From contig MU621099.1 in assembly GCA_025399215.1 (NCBI GenBank), positions 62,001 through 126,000 on the forward strand: a DNA stretch of 64,000 nt. Direction: 5' to 3'. Positions 9,430 to 45,797 of the stretch are shown piece by piece. Every line of letters begins with the position of its first letter. Position 1 is the stretch's first letter. The notes under the pieces are model-generated. The model did no database searches and was not told the origin of the DNA. It was given only the letters and a program-made list of their open reading frames with translations. This DNA comes from Globomyces pollinis-pini. Taxonomy: Eukaryota > Chytridiomycota > Chytridiomycetes > Rhizophydiales > Globomycetaceae. Made by a program: the position numbers and the translations under genes.

Positions 9430-10587
9430 TCCACTTAATTTTAGTTTGTGGGACACCTTTAGCATCTGCATTTACTATGGCAGATAGTGAAAAGAGTTTA
9501 AACAATGTTTTAAATGATGAATTTCCTGATGCTATGAAATTATACTGTTAATTATCTTATTGTAGTACTCGTTAGTTTTAAATAACTTTCTAACTAATTG
9601 CATCAAATGGAAGTAACACATTTGATTGATTTGATGCAATTAGTTAGAAAGTTATTTAAAACTAACCAGTACTACAATAAGATAATTAACTTTATCAAAG
9701 CATGTCATTTTTCACTAGACGATGACGAATATGTAGAAATATGGAATAAATTCATTACCGAATACGATAAAGAAGATCTCCCATTGAATGATCCAGGACG
9801 TTTATTTTGTACATGGATTATAGAGCGGTGTAAACCAGGATCAGAACTAGACAATTGTCGGGCATTTTTAACGCCTTGTGGATTTGCTACAACAAATAAT
9901 CATGTAGAAAGTTACATTGCCACTTTAAAAAGGACTCTAACGGAAAGAAATCTATTCACTATACCAAAGTTGTTTGATAAACTTTTTCGACATATTGTTC
10001 ATGATCTGGCTGATCCATTATCAACGGAATTTAGTTTTAGAACAAACATTCCTTCAACAAGAACAATCAATTCTGCAAAGAAGCAATTAGATGCAAAATT
10101 GATTCAAATATTCGCAAATAACAGACAATTAATGAATGTACAACAAGAGCTTGAAGAACCTGATAGGGTGTGCGATTATTACGATGATAATAATGATGAT
10201 GTTGAAAGGACTCATGTAGACACAATTATTTATCAAAATGCCTATATCGAAAGGAAAGGTCTGCCAGAAACTGGATGGACCGTTAATCTTGACAATGACT
10301 CTTGCGAATGTTTAATCCATATGAAGGATGGAAGCTGTGTACATGTTTGTGCTGCTAAGATGAGGATCGGACAACCTTTTCCAGGATGTAAAAACACTAC
10401 AAGAAGGTCAATGGTCAGTCAAAGAGGACGTCACGGTAATGTACCAATTCCTACAATAATTGGGAAAAAAGGTACAGCCAGAAGTAGAGGAATTGGTATA
10501 CCAATTCGAGGAAGTGGTGCAATTAGGGGAAGGTCGCCTTTGGTAGGTAGAGCATTATCAATAATAAAGGAATTTCAATTTACTTAA
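9430..10587 (+). mobile_element. MULE-type transposase remnant with SWIM zinc finger
   Basis: Remnant of a Mutator-like element transposase. The left part (about 9440-9547) carries two fragments of the MULE catalytic domain run together: PLASAFTMADSEKSL, resembling the plaf-x-lt-x-sE strand, and NDEFPDAMKLYC, resembling the FP-x2-x-LLC strand before the expected WH. The stretch normally between them and the WH are missing. A foldback palindrome follows (9547-9690). From 9598 a 329-residue frame runs to 10587: TTNNHVESYIATLKRTL is the typical C-terminal element (TNN-x-ES) and DSCECLIHMKDGSCVHVCAA is a SWIM zinc finger (CxC...CxH). The catalytic core is broken by deletion and the inverted duplication, so it is unlikely to be autonomous. 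No terminal inverted repeats or target duplications were found by eye. Confidence 0.75.
9547..9690. repeat. Foldback inverted repeat, 62-bp arms
   Basis: Arm 1 (9547-9608) is the reverse complement of arm 2 (9629-9690) with one visible mismatch; the loop is 20 nt (9609-9628). Arm 2 is part of the transposase frame (coding LVRKLFKTNQYYNKIIN), while arm 1 interrupts the frame after the LYC motif. It is therefore an inverted duplication of transposase sequence. Confidence 0.9.
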
Positions 10588-10807: not shown

Positions 10808-11880
10808 ATGTCTATCAAATCTATTCGTTCATTTGCTGAACTAGCATATCACCGCACAACTACCCCTTCGTTTACACCTCATTCTGTATCTGGTATTCAT
10901 TCTATTCAGCCTACAGCAAGTAGTATCTCATCGGAGCAGCCATCTTTTGCTGTGGTCAATCAAGGTTCTGGTATTGAATTGTTTGGTTTTTAATGGTAGG
11001 GTCTTTACTTTCTGTCAGATTACACAAAGGATTATCCTTAAGCGCTAGAGTTGGTTCTCTATTAGCTTCCAGTGGAAAAGTATTCAAAAATTTGTATTCA
11101 AATAGTAGATTGACACCCAACTAAAGCGTCATCATTCATTCACCAGAGGTTTGATTCAGAAACTAGCTGGAGGTTCCATATTTGTGGAAGAGGTATAAAT
11201 ATATATTGGTTGATGATATTATTAGGTAATTTATCACAAGATGTTGATCAAGTTAGTACATTACTCAGGAGCATGATTCGGTTGTACTTTTAACTCCAAA
11301 CGTTGAAGGCGATATAGCGGTGATAACTATGGATGGCACAAGGGACATTATTTTTAGATCACCATCTTATCTAGCTTCCACAAACACATTGGATTTTCTT
11401 GTTTCTCCACAAGGTTTTGGATTAAAAGATGGTGGATTCTTCCATACACAAGCACGAGGTCAAGGGATACTTAGTTTGTCATCATATGGTGGAATGACGG
11501 CATTGCAATTAAAACCTGGTGAAGAATGTATTGTTCAACCTCAGTAAGTGATTTCACTTAACATCAGGTATGTTATTGGTTGGGATTCATCAATGAAAAC
11601 GGAGCCTGTTGTTACAGATGCCTTACCTGCCGCACAAAGGGCAGTTAGGAAATCATTAGCATGGCTGTCTAAGTACCGTATTCCAGCATTTCTACAACGC
11701 CAAATTGAATCATTCCTATTTTTCATAGCAAAATATGCAAGATTGACTGTCCATCAATTTAGATACTGGGTATTGGGAGAACGAGGTGTTTACCGTATTA
11801 CCGGTCCAGGTGAAGTGTTTTTAAGTACACGTTTAAAGCCATCGTTATTCCGATCAGTTTTTTCCAGTACTAATAAATAA
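10808..11880 (+). CDS. AIM24: AIM24-family mitochondrial protein
   Basis: AIM24 is an inner-membrane mitochondrial protein that in yeast supports MICOS organisation. Diagnostic strands after splicing: SGSLLSVRLHKGLSLSARVG, RGLIQKLAGGSIFVEE, VLLTPNVEGDIAVITMDG, FGLKDGGFFHTQARGQG, LQLKPGEECIVQPQYVIGWD and a C-terminal VLGERGVYRITGPGEVFLST. The N-terminus from ATG 10808 (MSIKSIRSFAELAYHRTTT) has the composition of a mitochondrial presequence. Introns: 29 nt starting near 10967, 29 nt near 11082, 24 nt near 11543, and a composite region at 11193-11268 that reads as two back-to-back introns of 33 and 43 nt. The promoter side borders the transposon repeat, only about 95 bp away. Confidence 0.82.
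11193..11268 (+). other. Probable tandem intron pair in AIM24 (33 + 43 nt)
   Basis: Between codons for FVEE and EHDSVV the sequence reads GT...AG (11193-11225) directly followed by GT...AG (11226-11268). Removal of both, or of the whole 76 nt, restores phase 0. A single 76-nt intron is also possible. Confidence 0.5.
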
Positions 11881-14836: not shown

Positions 14837-16510
14837 ATGGTATTCTTGAGTAAAATCATGCCTAACAATAGTCAAAACCTGGATCAAAATCGAAATCCGC
14901 ATCCAAATTGAAAAAGGAGAAGAGTACTCCAGTTCTATTACCACAAGATGCAGGTTCAGTGTCTGCAGAAGACTTTAAAAAATTCCAAGAAGAGTTAGCG
15001 ATCGAAAGACAAGAAAGAAATTACTTTCAGCTTGAGAGGGTAATTATTAATGATAGATTGACATTTTAGGATAAAATTAATGTACCAATACTTCAGTGTT
15101 AATTCCTGTAGGAATATTGGGAAATTACCAAAAATGAATTAGGAAATTCCAAAGCGGAAATACTTAACAAAGATCGAGAATTAGAAGAATTAGAGGAAAA
15201 ACATCAAGTGGAAATCAAAGTGTATAAACAAAAAGTCAAGCATTTACTTTACGAATATCAGAACAATGTTGCCCATTTACAAGGTTTATCACTCATGTTA
15301 ACAGCTAGGTTAATAAATTATAATATCTAATTAGAAATAGCTGATTCTGAAAGAGCACTTCAGTTAGATCGAGAACAAAGTCAATTAAAAGAAGCTCATG
15401 CAAAAAAGGACAAACGCGCTTTGAAACTGGAACTAAAAGAATTTGAATTATCTCATGAAGATATTATTAAGAATTTAAAACAAAAAAATGATCAGGAAAT
15501 CACTTTAATGAGAGTCGATTTTGAAAGACAGGCAAAAGAATTACATGTAAAATACGAAAAAAAGATGAGAGTGATTAGAGATGAATTAGAATTAAAAAGA
15601 AAGAATGAAATTCATGAAATTGAAGAGAGAAAGAATGGTCAGATCAATGCATTGATGAAAAATCACGATAAAGCATTTACGGAAATTAAAAACTATTACA
15701 ATGATATTACATTGAACAACTTGGCTTTGATCAATTCACTCAAAGTATTTCTTGATGGTAACTTTAATTGATAGGAACAAGTAGAAGAGATGAAAAAGAA
15801 GGAAGAACGAAATGAAAAACAGATGGCAGATATAACAGCAGAAAACAAGTAATTACCAAATCTCTGTTAATACAACTTAGGCGACTTTCAGAACCACTTC
15901 AGATTGCTCTGGCCGAAGGTGACTCTCTTAAAAGAGAATTAACCCACTATGAAAAGGATAAACTATCCCTTCAAAATGCCAAGGCTAGACTAAAAATTCT
16001 AGAAGAAAAGTATAAACAGTCTACTTGGGAACATGAAGTTTTGGAACAACGCTTTGCGCAGGTCCAAAAGGAGCGTGATGAACTTTATGAACAATTTGTT
16101 GATAGAATTATCAGTGTTCAACAGAAAACAGGTTTCAAGAATTTAGTATATATTATTTTAACGTATTGCTAAATGTTTAGATTCTCGAAAAGAAAGTGGA
16201 AAGCTTAAAAGAAAACCTGGAAAAGCGTGAATTACAAGTCAATGAAATATTGAAGGCAACCAACCTAGATCCAGCTGCCCTTGCAAATTTAACAAGAAGA
16301 TTGGAAGATGTGCTAAACTCAAAGAACGAACAGATTAAGGAACTACAATATGATCTACACAAAGTCACCAAAGCCCATAATGACATGATTCGAGTTTACG
16401 AAGCCAAGTTGACTGAGTTTTCCATTCCAATCGAAGAATTAGGATTCAAGCCATTGGTGGTTGAGATGAAGACCAATGCCAATCCAGCAGGGTTAGTAGT
16501 GTCGCAATGA
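14837..16510 (+). CDS. DRC4: Dynein regulatory complex subunit 4 (DRC4/GAS8), axonemal
   Basis: A coiled-coil subunit of the nexin-dynein regulatory complex, the link between outer doublets in motile cilia. Near-signature stretches: [20 protein letters not shown] (about 15690-15745), [66 protein letters not shown] and [14 protein letters not shown] followed by GFKPL. Nearly the whole protein is predicted coiled coil. Start: ATG 14837-14839 is followed at once by a 32-nt intron (14840-14871), so exon 1 codes only Met, joining to [12 protein letters not shown], a Lys/Ser-rich start typical of the family. Other features: a 12-nt micro-exon at 15070-15081 and a tandem intron pair at 15284-15334. 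Presence of this gene argues for a flagellated life stage. The frame ends at 16510. Confidence 0.92.
15070..15081 (+). other. 12-nt micro-exon in DRC4 (codes DKIN)
   Basis: Intron 15040-15069 (30 nt) and intron 15082-15111 (30 nt) flank exactly four codons, D-K-I-N. Joining gives [18 protein letters not shown], which fits the conserved DRC4 sequence LERDKIN-x-FWEI. Without the micro-exon the conserved block is broken. Confidence 0.85.
15284..15334 (+). other. Tandem intron pair in DRC4 (25 + 26 nt, no exon between)
   Basis: GT...AG at 15284-15308 is followed without any exon base by GT...AG at 15309-15334. The flanking codons join as [15 protein letters not shown], matching the family. Each half alone has normal intron size for this genome. 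Confidence 0.75.
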
Positions 16511-27521: not shown

Positions 27522-28510
27522 ATGAAAATTGTAGGATTAACGGGAGGTATATCAACTGGAAAATCAACTGTATCGCATTTCTTGAAAACTTCAAAGGTGC
27601 CGTTGTTGGATGCTGACTTGATTGCCAGAGATATTGTTGTTCCAGGTATTTGATTTGTCTTGATGTTAATTATAAGGTTTTTGAACTCTCTTTATCTTAC
27701 TTTTAAAGGTATTCGGCATATCTAGGTTTGATTCAATTAGGTATTGGAGTGAACTCGTTGATTAGTGTTTTTAGGTCAAGCGGCTTATCATTTGATTTTG
27801 GATCATTTTGGACACGATATTTTGGATTCTAGTTCAAATATTGATAGAACAAGACTGGGAAATATTATCTTCAGTAACGCAGAGGAAAGAAGTGTTTTGA
27901 ATGATATCACACATCCAAGAATTCGATTAGAATTACTAAAACAGGTGTTGTTCACCTTCTTGACACTCAATAAAATGGTGGTTTTAGATACCCCACTATT
28001 GTTTGAGGCTGGATTTTATCGTTGGGTACATTCTACAGTGGTTGTCTATTGGTAATCAACATAAAGTTTTATTAATTGTTAATTAGTCCTGCTCCATTAC
28101 AGCAAGAGCGTTTAATGGCTCGAGATGGTATCAGTGCAGAACAAGCTAGAACTAAAATGGATTCACAGATGAATATTGAACAGAAAAAGGTGAGATTAGT
28201 GACTAACAGGTAGAGTTTAGCTCAACACGTAATTGACAATTCCACCTCTATGGCTTCAACTAGACGCCAAACAGATAGTTTAATACTTCAGTTACAGCCT
28301 TCTATGTTAAGCACTGTATTGATGTGGATGGTATTTTTCTGGCCCGCATTATGGTTATATGCGTTTTTGACACTCTACACTAAAATTGACTTCATGCGAC
28401 ATGTGGGAGTCTTTAGTCATCGCCCTATTCCACAGGTTATTCGCACTCGGGAACATGCAGGTATTCCAAATGCTGCTCCTGCAGCAGGACCATTACATGT
28501 GGTTGATTAA
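27522..28510 (+). CDS. CAB5: Dephospho-CoA kinase with C-terminal membrane segment
   Basis: Catalyses the last step of coenzyme A synthesis, ATP-dependent phosphorylation of dephospho-CoA. N-terminal P-loop MKIVGLTGGISTGKST, then LLDADLIARDIVVPG, ITHPRIRLELLKQ, VVLDTPLLFEAGFYRW, VHSTVVVYW, LMARDGISAEQARTKMDSQM and the C-terminal kinase element HVIDNSTSMASTRRQ. A hydrophobic span (VLMWMVFFWPALWLYAFLTL) follows at about 28318-28377 and suggests membrane anchoring, then a tail of about 45 residues ending at 28510. The segment joining VVPG to QAAYHLILDHFG is not one intron but reads as four contiguous mini-introns (27646-27774). Further introns at about 28052 and 28190. Confidence 0.88.
27646..27774 (+). 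other. Array of four head-to-tail mini-introns in the CoA kinase gene
   Basis: Four contiguous GT...AG units: 27646-27676 (31 nt), 27677-27708 (32), 27709-27740 (32) and 27741-27774 (34), with no base between them. The flanking exons join as P-G-Q-A-A-Y in the correct frame (G codon split 1+2). Each unit has the size of a normal single intron in this genome. Confidence 0.75.
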
Positions 28511-41660: not shown

Positions 41661-42754
41661 TTATTCCTCATCATCCATCTTTGGAGCAAGATAATATCTG
41701 GAATAAGTAACTTAAAAACTTACCGGACATGTCCGATTTCACCGATTCGGTATTGAACCAACATTGGAATATCATTAGAAACAGAAAGGCTGACTTGCTT
41801 GGAAAGAGGGGTAGCTTTTGCAAAATTGCAAAGGTATTTAGAAGCTAGAACAACGGAGACAGCCTAGATATAAACCGAGAAGAAATATACTTTGCTGACT
41901 TCAATTTTAGTGGTAGTGTCTTCGTATTCATCTTTTTCATCAATAGAACCACCAGATCCAGCTTTAAGAGTAACAGACCCAGTGCCGATATCTCCGTCCA
42001 CAGAAAATTTAATACCTTCTTTATCAATGGATAAAGTCACTTTTGTTAGAATTGATTGATTACAGTTGTCTGAAATTTCTTTCATGTCTGTACAGATACG
42101 TTTGAATTCAGCCGAGGACATGGTGACAATGGCATCATATTCTGGCTCAGGGACACCCAAATGGTCAGCATCAATATTCATTAATTTCAAGTCATATTCA
42201 CACATGCGATCATTCTCTAGTAACTGTTAGAGAGGATCAAAAAAATGAAAATAGTAATGACAGAGATTTGCGCAAGATAGATAAAACCGATGATGAGTGG
42301 TTTATCACAAGTCTTCAATACGAGAAATATATAATTGGATAGAAAAGGGTAGTATACATACTTCCTTCAAACAAGATGGTCAAATAGTCTGATTTTTCAC
42401 CGGCCTGTAAAGTGAGGATATCATCAGGACCAGCAGCTTTGAGAATCTTTCCCAAGGAAGAGAGGGAGAGACCCAAATTAACGTTTCGATCACAGCGATA
42501 GTGTTCGAAACCAGATTTTCTCAAGAGTAAGATGATAAGGGAGACGTGAGCAGTGTCCATAGCTTGCAGGGAGATACCAGTATCATTGCAGTCAAAGTTT
42601 ACATCATTGATCAGATCCTTTACAGCGTCGAGTAGTTTCTTGAGGATACTAAAAAGATCAGCATAAGAAACAAGAAAGACAATTAGTTAATAGATCAATT
42701 AGTGAATGTGAGGGAGAGAGAGTACCTTGCAGGATTAAGTCTGGCTTCTAACAT
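41661..42754 (-). CDS. PCNA: Proliferating cell nuclear antigen (sliding clamp)
   Basis: Homotrimeric DNA clamp for polymerase delta/epsilon and repair factors. Visible: MLEARLNPA start at 42754, ILKKLLDAVKDLINDVNFDC, LQAMDTAHVSLIILLLRKSG, the basic DNA-facing helix, GFEHYRCDRNVNLGLSLSSL, KAAGPDDILTLQAG, MCEYDLKLMNIDADHLGVPE, YDAIVTMSSAEFKRICTDM and the C-terminus VRYYLAPKMDDEE. It is nearly full length for the family (about 260 residues). Introns differ in size: about 77 nt after codon 10 and about 140 nt near 42220-42363, against 27 nt near 41862-41888 and 26 nt near 41704-41729. The two long introns contain no internal AG|GT junctions, so long undivided introns do exist here. Divergent promoter with MCM8. 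Confidence 0.93.
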
Positions 42755-42936: not shown

Positions 42937-45797
42937 ATGTCTGATAATCCAGCTTCACTTCCATACTTTACCAAACTACTGGATTTCTTTATAAATTACT
43001 ATTCTACTACTGATAATCACTTTGACTCAGTCATTGCTCTTCCTTGGTCTCTTTTACTAAACTACCCTGCACTGGACTGTCTCTCCCTATTGATTACAGC
43101 TCCTGCTTCTTTCTTACCCGCTCTCGACTTAGCTGCTACTCTTGTATGCTCATTGACTCTCACTCTTAGGCTGCTGAAAAATATTTGGAACGAATTCAAA
43201 TCAATTGGTTAAAGGATGTTCAACTCCCACAGAAATCTGTTCAACTACTACAATACAACTCTATCACTAAACTAAAGGATTTAAAACCTAGCCTTGTCGG
43301 TATCTGGCTTGTTTAACATTAGGGAAATTCGTCTCTGTGAAAGGCACAGTTGTGTCTGTGTCCCTCGTAAAGCCTCTCATATCACAAATGGTTTTCACTT
43401 GCGCTTTATGCAGGAAACCTTATCTAATCAAAGCTGTACTTGGAAAATTTAAACCTTTGTCAAAATGTTCTAAACTTGGTTGTCTATCAAAATCTTTCGT
43501 TCCTGACAGAACTTCAAATGATACTATCGTATCTGATTGCCAATATGTCACGTAAATACTCTTTCTTTATTCTCTCTTTTTGTTTTATCATGAAGTTGAC
43601 AATCTTTATGACCATGTTGATGGACACCAAAGGTGTTTGTGTCCTACTAAAACACATAAGATGATTATATATCCACTTTTTACCAATCGAAAAAGACTAA
43701 TATTTCAAAGCATCCAAGAAAAACTACCACAAGATCACCCTGAATACAAAAAAGTTCCCAAATCTTTACAATGCTATCTCCAAAAGAGTCTAGTAGACAG
43801 CGTTATTCCTGGTAACGTTGTTACATGTTCCGGGATCGTCCAAACACTGTCAACCCAAGATGGTATCGAATATCTTTAACTTCAACAGCAAAAAACAAAT
43901 CAAATACGGCTCATATGTTTTTCATGGTACTACTTAAACTATAACAATAGTATTTACAAGTTAATTCGATTGAAAAGATTGAAGAGGATGATGAGATACG
44001 GAAAGACACTCTTGAATTTTCTGATACTGATTTGCAGGGTATATTAGAAATTTACAACTTTGAAGGTTTAGCTATAGTGCTAATTATCTTAGGTACATTT
44101 TATGTAGTCCTTACGGCTAGGTATCTCTTTTTTCTATTCATTCCCTGCTAGGTATGTTAGTTTTGCTAATGATTAGGTAAATAAGAATCATTATTAAGAT
44201 TAGGTAAACAGTTCATGATTTATTCTAGGTGATTTGTTTAATCTCTTGGTTCATTCATTCTGTCCACCTATATTTGGACATGAAATTATTAAAGGTAGTC
44301 ATAATTTTGTTTAGTTTTCCAGCTGCTCTTTTACTGACTTTGTTTGGCGGCCGGCAACGTTCTCAAAGTCAGTCTACAATTCAACTACGCCCAGATCCAC
44401 ACATATTGGTTGTTGGTGATCCAGGTATTTCAGCTATTTTAATTTTAGGGCTTGGTAAGAGTCAATTGTTATTGGCAGCAGTAAATTTGTCGCCACGAGG
44501 TGTGTATGCAACTGGATCTACATCCACCACAGCCGCCTTTACGGCCAATGTGTCGAAAGATTCTTTTTCGGGAGATACTATCTTAGAGGCTGGTTACTTT
44601 CCATTAGCAGACCAAGGGTTGTGTTGTATTGATGAATTCGACAAATTAAAAGATTATAATCCTATTCTTCAGATTTTGGAAGAACAAGCTATAGCAGTGT
44701 CTAAGAATGGATTTCTATGTTCAATGCCTTGTCGAACAAGTGTTGTTGCCGCTGCTAATCCAACTGGTAATTATGTATATATAACATTAAAGGTGGTCAT
44801 TACGATAAAACAAAAACAATCGTGGAAAACTTGAAGATGAATGAAGTTCTCCTATCGAGGTTTGACTTGATTTTTGTCATGTTGGATAAAGCTGACCAAA
44901 CGATGGATCGATTTCTTTCTGACCATATCATGAAAGTAATCCAAACTTTACTTTTTCTTATATCAGATTCATAGCGGTAAACGGTTAGTCAAACAAGAAT
45001 TTACCAAAAATGGTATTTAATTGGTTGTTCATGATGTAGAGAATGGTGAGGCGACTGTTAACTCGCTATCAGAAAGATTGCATTTTGGAACAATGAATTC
45101 AGATCCAATTCCAACCAACTTATTACGAAAATACATATCGTACGCCAGAACATATTGTCAACCAAAGTAAGGAATATTCTGGTTAAGTTTAGGTTGACGA
45201 ACGAAGCGGCGGTAGCATTACAAGAATGTTATCTGCTTCTGAAAAAGTAATGATTCAAAGTTTAACAACTAGGAGTCGATCAAGGTAATAAAACCAAAAA
45301 GTAAATGAAATTGAAACCAGTGATGGGACTCCTGTACGTTCAATTCACTGATTGTTAGATTACCACTCGATACTTGGAATCAATGCTAAGACTATCAGAA
45401 GCAAGAGCCAGATCCGAATTACGTACGTCAAATTAATCTGAACTTAGGCGACAATATCACTCCTGAAGACGTTTCAGATATATTCGAGATTTTCAAATAC
45501 TCTCTGTAAGTAATCAACTCTTGACGATAGATTTCATCTTAATGACGAAGTTGGACAACTTGTGCAATCCAAACGGAAAGGGGGAGGGTCTAGTAAACAA
45601 GCCGAACTTAAGCTTTTACTGGAAGGATTACGAAAGACTAGTAATCAAACCGGTTCATCTTTCACATATGCACAAATTGTCAACCTTGCCAATCGTAATC
45701 CGATTCCATCTTAACATGGTTAGAATTGATGATTAAGAATGATGTGACAGTGATGTTGGAAACGTTGAATCATCAAGGTGCATTATTGTATTACTAA
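42937..45797 (+). CDS. MCM8: MCM8-type DNA helicase
   Basis: AAA+ helicase of the MCM family acting in homologous recombination and meiosis, usually with MCM9. Order of features: an N-terminal domain, zinc finger CALC-x18-C-x4-C (about 43400-43480), an OB-fold region (VDSVIPGNVVTCSGIVQTL), FCPPIFGHEIIKAALLLTLF followed by GG, Walker A GDPGLGKSQ, GVYATGSTSTTAAFTANVSK, Walker B LCCIDEFDK, sensor AAANP, arginine-finger region VLLSRFDL, then PKLTNEAAVALQ, ITTRYLESMLRLSEARAR and a C-terminal winged helix ending QGALLYY at 45797. The MCM8 identity rests on SPRGVYATG, LADQGLCCIDEFD and GHYDKTKTIVENLKM. About 18 introns of 23-36 nt are present; one of 24 nt splits Walker A (about 44426-44449). It also holds an array of six joined introns and two micro-exons (12 and 13 nt). 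Confidence 0.88.
44066..44228 (+). other. Array of six head-to-tail mini-introns in MCM8
   Basis: Six contiguous GT...AG units with zero-length exons: 44066-44092 (27 nt), 44093-44120 (28), 44121-44151 (31), 44152-44176 (25), 44177-44203 (27) and 44204-44228 (25). Flanking codons join as IYNFEG-DLFNLLVHSFCPP, which matches MCM8 without gap. The units are not copies of each other; they share only the ends and, in several, a CTAAT-like branch site. Confidence 0.8.
45273..45284 (+). other. 12-nt micro-exon in MCM8
   Basis: Flanked by introns 45247-45272 (26 nt) and 45285-45320 (36 nt). Together with the next micro-exon it gives LLLKKSRSSDGTPITTRY, colinear with the MCM8 family segment that precedes the conserved ITTR. 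Confidence 0.7.
45321..45333 (+). other. 13-nt micro-exon in MCM8
   Basis: Lies between introns 45285-45320 (36 nt) and 45334-45358 (25 nt). It codes S/D-G-T-P and restores phase into ITTRYLESMLRL. Confidence 0.7.

Follow-up and report, generated by a model that had tools for sequence, protein, structure and literature searches.

Putative mini-introns joined end to end with zero-length exons in MCM8 and other genes of the chytrid Globomyces pollinis-pini

The MCM8 gene and its 163-nt interval

The window analysed here is a stretch of 64,000 nucleotides (contig C10, positions 62001-126000) from the 18.5-Mb genome, in 459 contigs, of Globomyces pollinis-pini, a member of the Globomycetaceae (Rhizophydiales). 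Unless a contig is named, coordinates refer to this window. It contains an MCM8 gene. The best match to its spliced protein is the MCM8 from Globomyces sp. JEL0801 (E=0); the top local alignment covers 64% of the query at 92% identity, and a further alignment gives 98% identity. The coding sequence is interrupted by an interval that can be read as a series of very short introns:

42937..45797, + strand: MCM8 gene, gene-model span; identified by protein alignments
44066..44228, + strand: array of six predicted mini-introns in MCM8, separated by zero-length exons; phase 1; 163 nt; unique GT..AG tiling, and removal restores the protein alignment
44066..44092, + strand: unit 1, 27 nt; donor weak, branch motif good; in frame without stop
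44093..44120, + strand: unit 2, 28 nt
44121..44151, + strand: unit 3, 31 nt
44152..44176, + strand: unit 4, 25 nt; top branch motif among the six
44177..44203, + strand: unit 5, 27 nt; weak branch motif, -0.63 bit
44204..44228, + strand: unit 6, 25 nt

The original prediction described six GT..AG units of 27, 28, 31, 25, 27 and 25 nt with five inner AG|GT junctions, and the interval has exactly this composition. With units of 21-38 nt there is a single possible tiling, and among 50,000 dinucleotide-shuffled versions of the interval, 5 tile fully. Because the outer borders (AAG|GT and TAG|GT) are AG|GT as well, seven AGGT words follow each other in a row. The units also have the ordinary intron size of this genome, as had been claimed. 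A small gene finder was trained on 264 kb, made up of the window and a 200-kb portion of contig C1 (the C1 sequence was picked irrespective of arrays, and the window itself was selected for the finding). Run with intron lengths limited to 44 nt, it modelled 726 introns of 20-38 nt with a mode of 29 nt, compared with 25-31 nt for the MCM8 units. In this model the donors are mostly GTA and the acceptors mostly TAG, and a branch motif resembling YTRAY is found in a 7-mer that mostly starts 11-16 nt upstream of the 3' end. A first gene model, in which long introns were unrestricted, fused genes and mis-parsed the MCM8 array; it was superseded by a chain model, in which zero-length exons are permitted, together with conserved proteins.

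Removal of the whole interval leaves the coding sequence GAA G^GT GAT. The resulting junction, ILEIYNFEG^DLFNLLVHSFCPPIFGHE, aligns gap-free to MCM8 of Boothiomyces macroporosus, and in the alignment to the solved MCM8 chain 7wi7_A a gap of a single residue immediately precedes it; the query protein in these alignments carried five intron-derived residues (LIFQS) from an upstream intron, which leaves the six-unit interval unaffected. Retention of any single unit introduces a stop or a frame shift, except for unit 1, which adds nine residues. The donor of this unit is weak (2.06 bits), and none of the gene models predicted the unit as an intron unaided. Unit 1 could thus be retained as nine residues, but the homologues speak against this. 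The deposited MCM8 of JEL0801 does keep unit 1 as an exon, with one residue different, and then lacks the conserved stretch DLFNLLVHSFCPPIFGHEIIK. The simplest reading of this deposited protein is that JEL0801 has the same array and that the gene is mis-annotated. The protein keeps another short intron (GISAILIL) as well, and its mis-splicing at the array suggests that loci of this kind defeat automatic annotation.

Several simpler identities of the interval were considered and rejected. A genome search with the 163 nt returned only the interval itself at E<=10, which leaves a mobile copy as its source without support. No simple tandem repeat was detected between 43000 and 46000, and no Rfam model matched at gathering score in the window. 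As originally noted, the six units are mutually dissimilar beyond their splice signals (best pair p=0.08).

Further arrays, chance and splice signals

Arrays of this kind exist beyond MCM8, in other genes and with up to ten units. Among 619 internal exons of the chain model in the 264 kb, 20 have zero length, compared with a total of 16 for all lengths from 1 to 20 nt. The same sequence holds ten arrays of at least two units, six of which have at least three; on C1 (200 kb), the respective numbers are six and four. Extrapolated from this small sample, the genome probably contains several hundred arrays. The window contributes one further long array and two short tilings:

27646..27774, + strand: second window array, four units (31, 32, 32 and 34 nt) in the dephospho-CoA kinase gene; chain model and protein alignment
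11193..11256, + strand: two-unit tiling (33 and 31 nt); 6% of shuffles tile too
15284..15334, + strand: two-unit tiling (25 and 26 nt); 13% of shuffles tile too

Arrays were excised in silico, and the resulting proteins were aligned or searched against Pfam. Arrays of 10, 10, 6, 5 and 4 units are anchored by solved relatives, the six units being those of MCM8. For the others, the alignments are gap-free across the ten-unit arrays of a PHYHD1-like dioxygenase (junction IFK^QPDIGGEV) and of CHMP3/Vps24 (LAKE^VVNSKKA), the five-unit array of a CLK-like kinase (VAFLHDL^GLIHTDLKPEN), and the four-unit array of dephospho-CoA kinase (IVVP^GQAAYHLI). Pfam domains extend across the three-unit arrays of a Gpi1 protein and a ubiquitin-conjugating-like protein and across an array of eight units in a GDSL protein. 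The last-named junction is the least certain one, as its phase hangs on the gene model. A histidine-phosphatase-like protein with a three-unit array gave no Pfam match at 0.001. A single WD40 gene (C2:133327-136390, strand -) holds two separate four-unit arrays.

Long introns could hold suitably spaced AG|GT words by chance, and the proportion of shuffles that yield two-unit tilings (6-13%) shows how easily the shortest cases arise. As a general explanation, however, chance is contradicted by several controls. In addition to the rarity of the MCM8 tiling among its shuffles, 78 long introns of the gene model include 6 that tile, where 0.48 are expected. Chains of AG|GT junctions with at least four complete units number six in the 264 kb, compared with one in total over all controls in which spacers of 1-30 nt separate AG from GT; this chain count may include overlapping starts, and the six include at least one GC-rich repeat. 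That chain, at C1:106125-106342 (strand -), is a tandem repeat that tiles as GT..AG units but is probably coding and hence a false positive of the count. With at least two units, nine AG|GT chains compare with a spacer mean of 2.6, and with at least one unit, 87 compare with 28-79 in the spacer controls.

The original prediction had proposed a genome scan of AG|GT spacing, and the outcome lies far from the spacer controls. The pattern TTAGGT-TAGGT-TAGGT with 18-28 free bases in between has 100 matches at 75 places genome-wide; with one, two or three spacer bases per junction there are 37, 9 and 2 matches at 19, 4 and 2 places, respectively, and 34 of the 37 one-base-spacer matches are TTAGGGT. 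Read backwards, the pattern without spacer gives 23 matches, and those with one, two and three spacer bases give 1, 28 and 13, respectively; the looser TAGGT pattern has 176 matches compared with 88 reversed. As the reversed-letter control is not small, some of the three-junction matches are due to chance. The 34 chains of TTAGGGT words spaced 18-28 nt apart (for example C19:112547, C20:70190, C183:3412 and C233:8133) are perhaps telomere-like repeats inside contigs.

Independent evidence comes from the branch motif, whose letters played no part in array finding and whose model was trained on single introns. The unit sample comprised 16 arrays, six from the 264 kb and ten from pattern-chosen loci, with two-unit arrays excluded. 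Inner array units carry splice signals about as often as single introns do. The pass mark of 1 bit is exceeded by 69% of the 48 inner units and 72% of the 696 single introns, whereas shuffled introns reach 20% and a set of 1114 GT..AG pieces from coding sequence 9%. By origin, 52% of 25 units from the six 264-kb arrays and 75% of 55 from the ten pattern-chosen arrays pass; by position, 94% of 16 first units but 38% of 16 last units. Among units defined by AG|GT spacing alone, 66% of 162 distinct units pass, compared with 14% of their own shuffles; these units come from 100 listed matches of the 176 counted for the TAGGT pattern. In MCM8, units 1, 2 and 4 pass, whereas units 3, 5 and 6 score 0.21, -0.63 and 0.63 bit. 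Single two-unit cases aside, chance is refuted as a general explanation, and we regard it as extremely improbable for the arrays as a class.

Stepwise or one-step removal

According to the original prediction, a long intron of this kind might be removable only in steps, because the splicing machinery favours units of about 27 nt. A hard size limit of this sort is ruled out by longer introns of the same neighbourhood that are not tiled:

42649..42725, - strand: untiled 77-nt PCNA intron without inner AG; protein support
42217..42361, - strand: untiled 145-nt PCNA intron; protein support
43552..43710, + strand: untiled MCM8 intron of about 159 nt; acceptor set by protein alignment; ACTAAT in the last 16 nt

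Both PCNA introns sit within well-aligned PCNA sequence. A model that permits introns of up to 250 nt finds 22 of at least 40 nt in the 264 kb, at least three of which are mis-parsed or doubtful (27646-27725, 43552-43632 and 9547-9718). The last of these, modelled as 172 nt long, consists of a long imperfect inverted repeat and lies next to an ORF that we take to resemble a transposase; it is more likely a hairpin or the end of a mobile element than an intron. Thus, the part of the prediction in which the machinery removes only units of about 27 nt is not supported. Recursive, stepwise removal as such retains its place as a natural reading of the AG|GT spacing and of the donor, branch and acceptor signals.

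How stepwise removal would proceed can be outlined. Any donor paired with any later acceptor of the same array would leave either an AG|GT junction or the finished exon junction, and intron-definition complexes could cut out the units of about 27 nt singly and in any order. Since every inner exon has zero length, all splicing orders would yield the same mRNA.

Alternatively, an array may be a tandemly repeated long intron that is removed in a single splice between its first donor and its last acceptor, with the inner AG|GT words as relics of duplication. One-step removal is possible because long untiled introns exist and are spliced in this genome (the three listed above), and a fission-yeast gene is described with an intron that extends across four 24-bp copies of an AGGT repeat (PMC4974935). 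On the other side, inner units hold branch motifs at a near-normal rate, while the last units, whose motif would be needed most, pass in only 6 of 16 cases, and the junctions are intact also where the units of an array have no detectable similarity left. One-step removal therefore appears rather improbable. Since inner branch motifs have been kept while other letters diverged, stepwise removal is preferred, and we consider it likely.

Origin of the arrays and relation to known introns

Neighbouring units are related in a fraction of the arrays. Among 100 adjacent unit pairs, 16 are more similar than the 99th percentile of random unit pairs and seven exceed the 99.9th percentile, although the pairs are not independent, as several share one array. 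Similarity within arrays is also evident from permutations in which units were redistributed among the arrays: with the clearest array omitted, the observed mean of 15 arrays was reached in 18 of 5000. The array on C12 contains two identical 28-nt units plus relatives, and those on C68 and C60 consist of closely similar units. These 16 pairs indicate that some arrays were made by tandem duplication. The original observation that the MCM8 units do not resemble each other holds, but these other arrays are plainly tandem duplications. The C12 array (start at locus position 1391) has ten units in all, with further similar neighbours; its units 1 and 8 are alike, which suggests that more than one unit was duplicated at once.

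The flanking exons bear on the same question. At the ten arrays of the 264 kb, eight flanking exons end in AG and five begin with GT, compared with 31% AG ends and 12% GT starts at 696 single introns (p 0.002 and 0.004). This enrichment fits duplication through AG|G(T) microhomology and also insertion at AG|GT. We propose that arrays grow through tandem duplication of whole introns, aided by AG|G(T) microhomology at the intron borders, and that insertion of introns at existing junctions perhaps adds to their growth. An extra intron copy would be tolerated because each inner exon has length zero. The MCM8 array may then be an old, diverged duplication.

The converse weighting, which corresponds to the second idea of the original prediction and in which unrelated introns were serially inserted into existing AG|GT junctions in an introner-like manner or by reverse splicing and duplication was minor, would account for the dissimilar MCM8 units, for the 84 of 100 neighbouring pairs without clear similarity, and for the enriched AG|GT flanks. 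It is at odds with the clear tandem copies and with the lack of a second genomic copy of the MCM8 interval at E<=10. Furthermore, no array unit closely resembles any of the 696 single introns, apart from one perfect match that is itself an array unit mislisted as a single intron, although a 264-kb sample is too small to exclude such sources; transposition of introns from elsewhere is unsupported in these 264 kb. Serial insertion as the main process is thus conceivable but unlikely. Growth by duplication combined with stepwise removal explains the data best. We consider this explanation as a whole fairly probable, with the MCM8 interval composed of six mini-introns that have only zero-length exons between them and belonging to a class that probably numbers several hundred arrays in the genome. 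Points against this reading are that three of the six MCM8 units pass the branch-motif mark, that last units do so less often, and that unit 1 was never modelled as an intron.

Features of these arrays recur in several known systems. At the recursive splice sites of Drosophila (RP-sites), a juxtaposed AG|GT divides an intron by a zero-nucleotide exon and the intron is removed stepwise; such ratchet points are described in long introns (two in the approximately 50-kb kuz intron) and need a cryptic exon for exon definition (PMC8605326, PMC2773006). The direct joining of an acceptor to a donor is shared by the five inner AG|GT of MCM8 and by the other arrays. In the chytrid, however, up to ten units of about 25-34 nt abut, which leaves no room for an RS-exon and involves no very long intron. 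Stwintrons are complex fungal introns composed of several canonical introns, removed consecutively under intron definition (PMC7138796, PMC12403724, PMC8469720, PMC5639578). The composition is comparable, but in stwintrons one intron is nested in a splice signal of another, whereas here whole introns abut and none splits the signal of its neighbour. In a systematic search of side-by-side parses, the MCM8 interval gave a unique tiling.

Intron gain by tandem duplication is likewise based on AGGT-bounded tandem units that supply splice sites; in the cases described, duplication of an exonic segment gives rise to one intron (PMC4974935), whereas the chytrid arrays repeat whole introns, branch motifs included, at many loci. 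Human UBC contains tandem dual-specific splice sites, regularly spaced AGGT words that can serve as donor or acceptor, for which a DSS expansion model has been put forward (PMC10809524). The regular AGGT spacing is similar, but the UBC units encode ubiquitin monomers and remain, in variable number, part of the mRNA, whereas the chytrid units are intronic: apart from unit 1, the MCM8 units cause stops or frame shifts if retained, and homologues have no extra residues. Introners, too, cause mass intron gain, mostly in aquatic lineages (PMC9860276), but no dispersed sequence family was found here, with the MCM8 interval searched genome-wide and the units compared with the single introns of 264 kb, a small part of the genome. 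In the literature searched, which did not extend to subscription papers and preprints, we found no dense zero-exon array of abutting complete nuclear mini-introns with up to ten units. The MCM8-type arrays thus appear to be a new variant of recursive splicing and of intron gain by tandem duplication.

A more far-reaching interpretation, about which we are slightly more doubtful than confident, is that these arrays form a genome-wide class of path-independent polyintrons. Inside conserved genes, whole copies would expand and contract at AG|GT in a satellite-like manner, and particles of about 27 nt would be excised by intron definition in any order, releasing up to ten mini-lariats per position. 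Polyintrons would then represent a third architecture beside nested stwintrons and the ratchets of long introns. Intron multiplication is usually inferred from single cases; if the proposed reading is true, one genome displays many of its stages in conserved genes, with identical, similar and diverged units. End-to-end arrays could reveal the way in which introns multiply and whether excision proceeds one by one. They would also test, in a natural setting, how small a spliceosome working by intron definition on consecutive substrates can be and whether the order of removal matters. The five-unit array of the CLK/LAMMER-like kinase, at C1:20692-20829 (strand -), lies in the region that codes for the catalytic loop. 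Kinases of the CLK/LAMMER family act on splicing factors, and so it could be asked whether this kinase gene regulates itself by retention.
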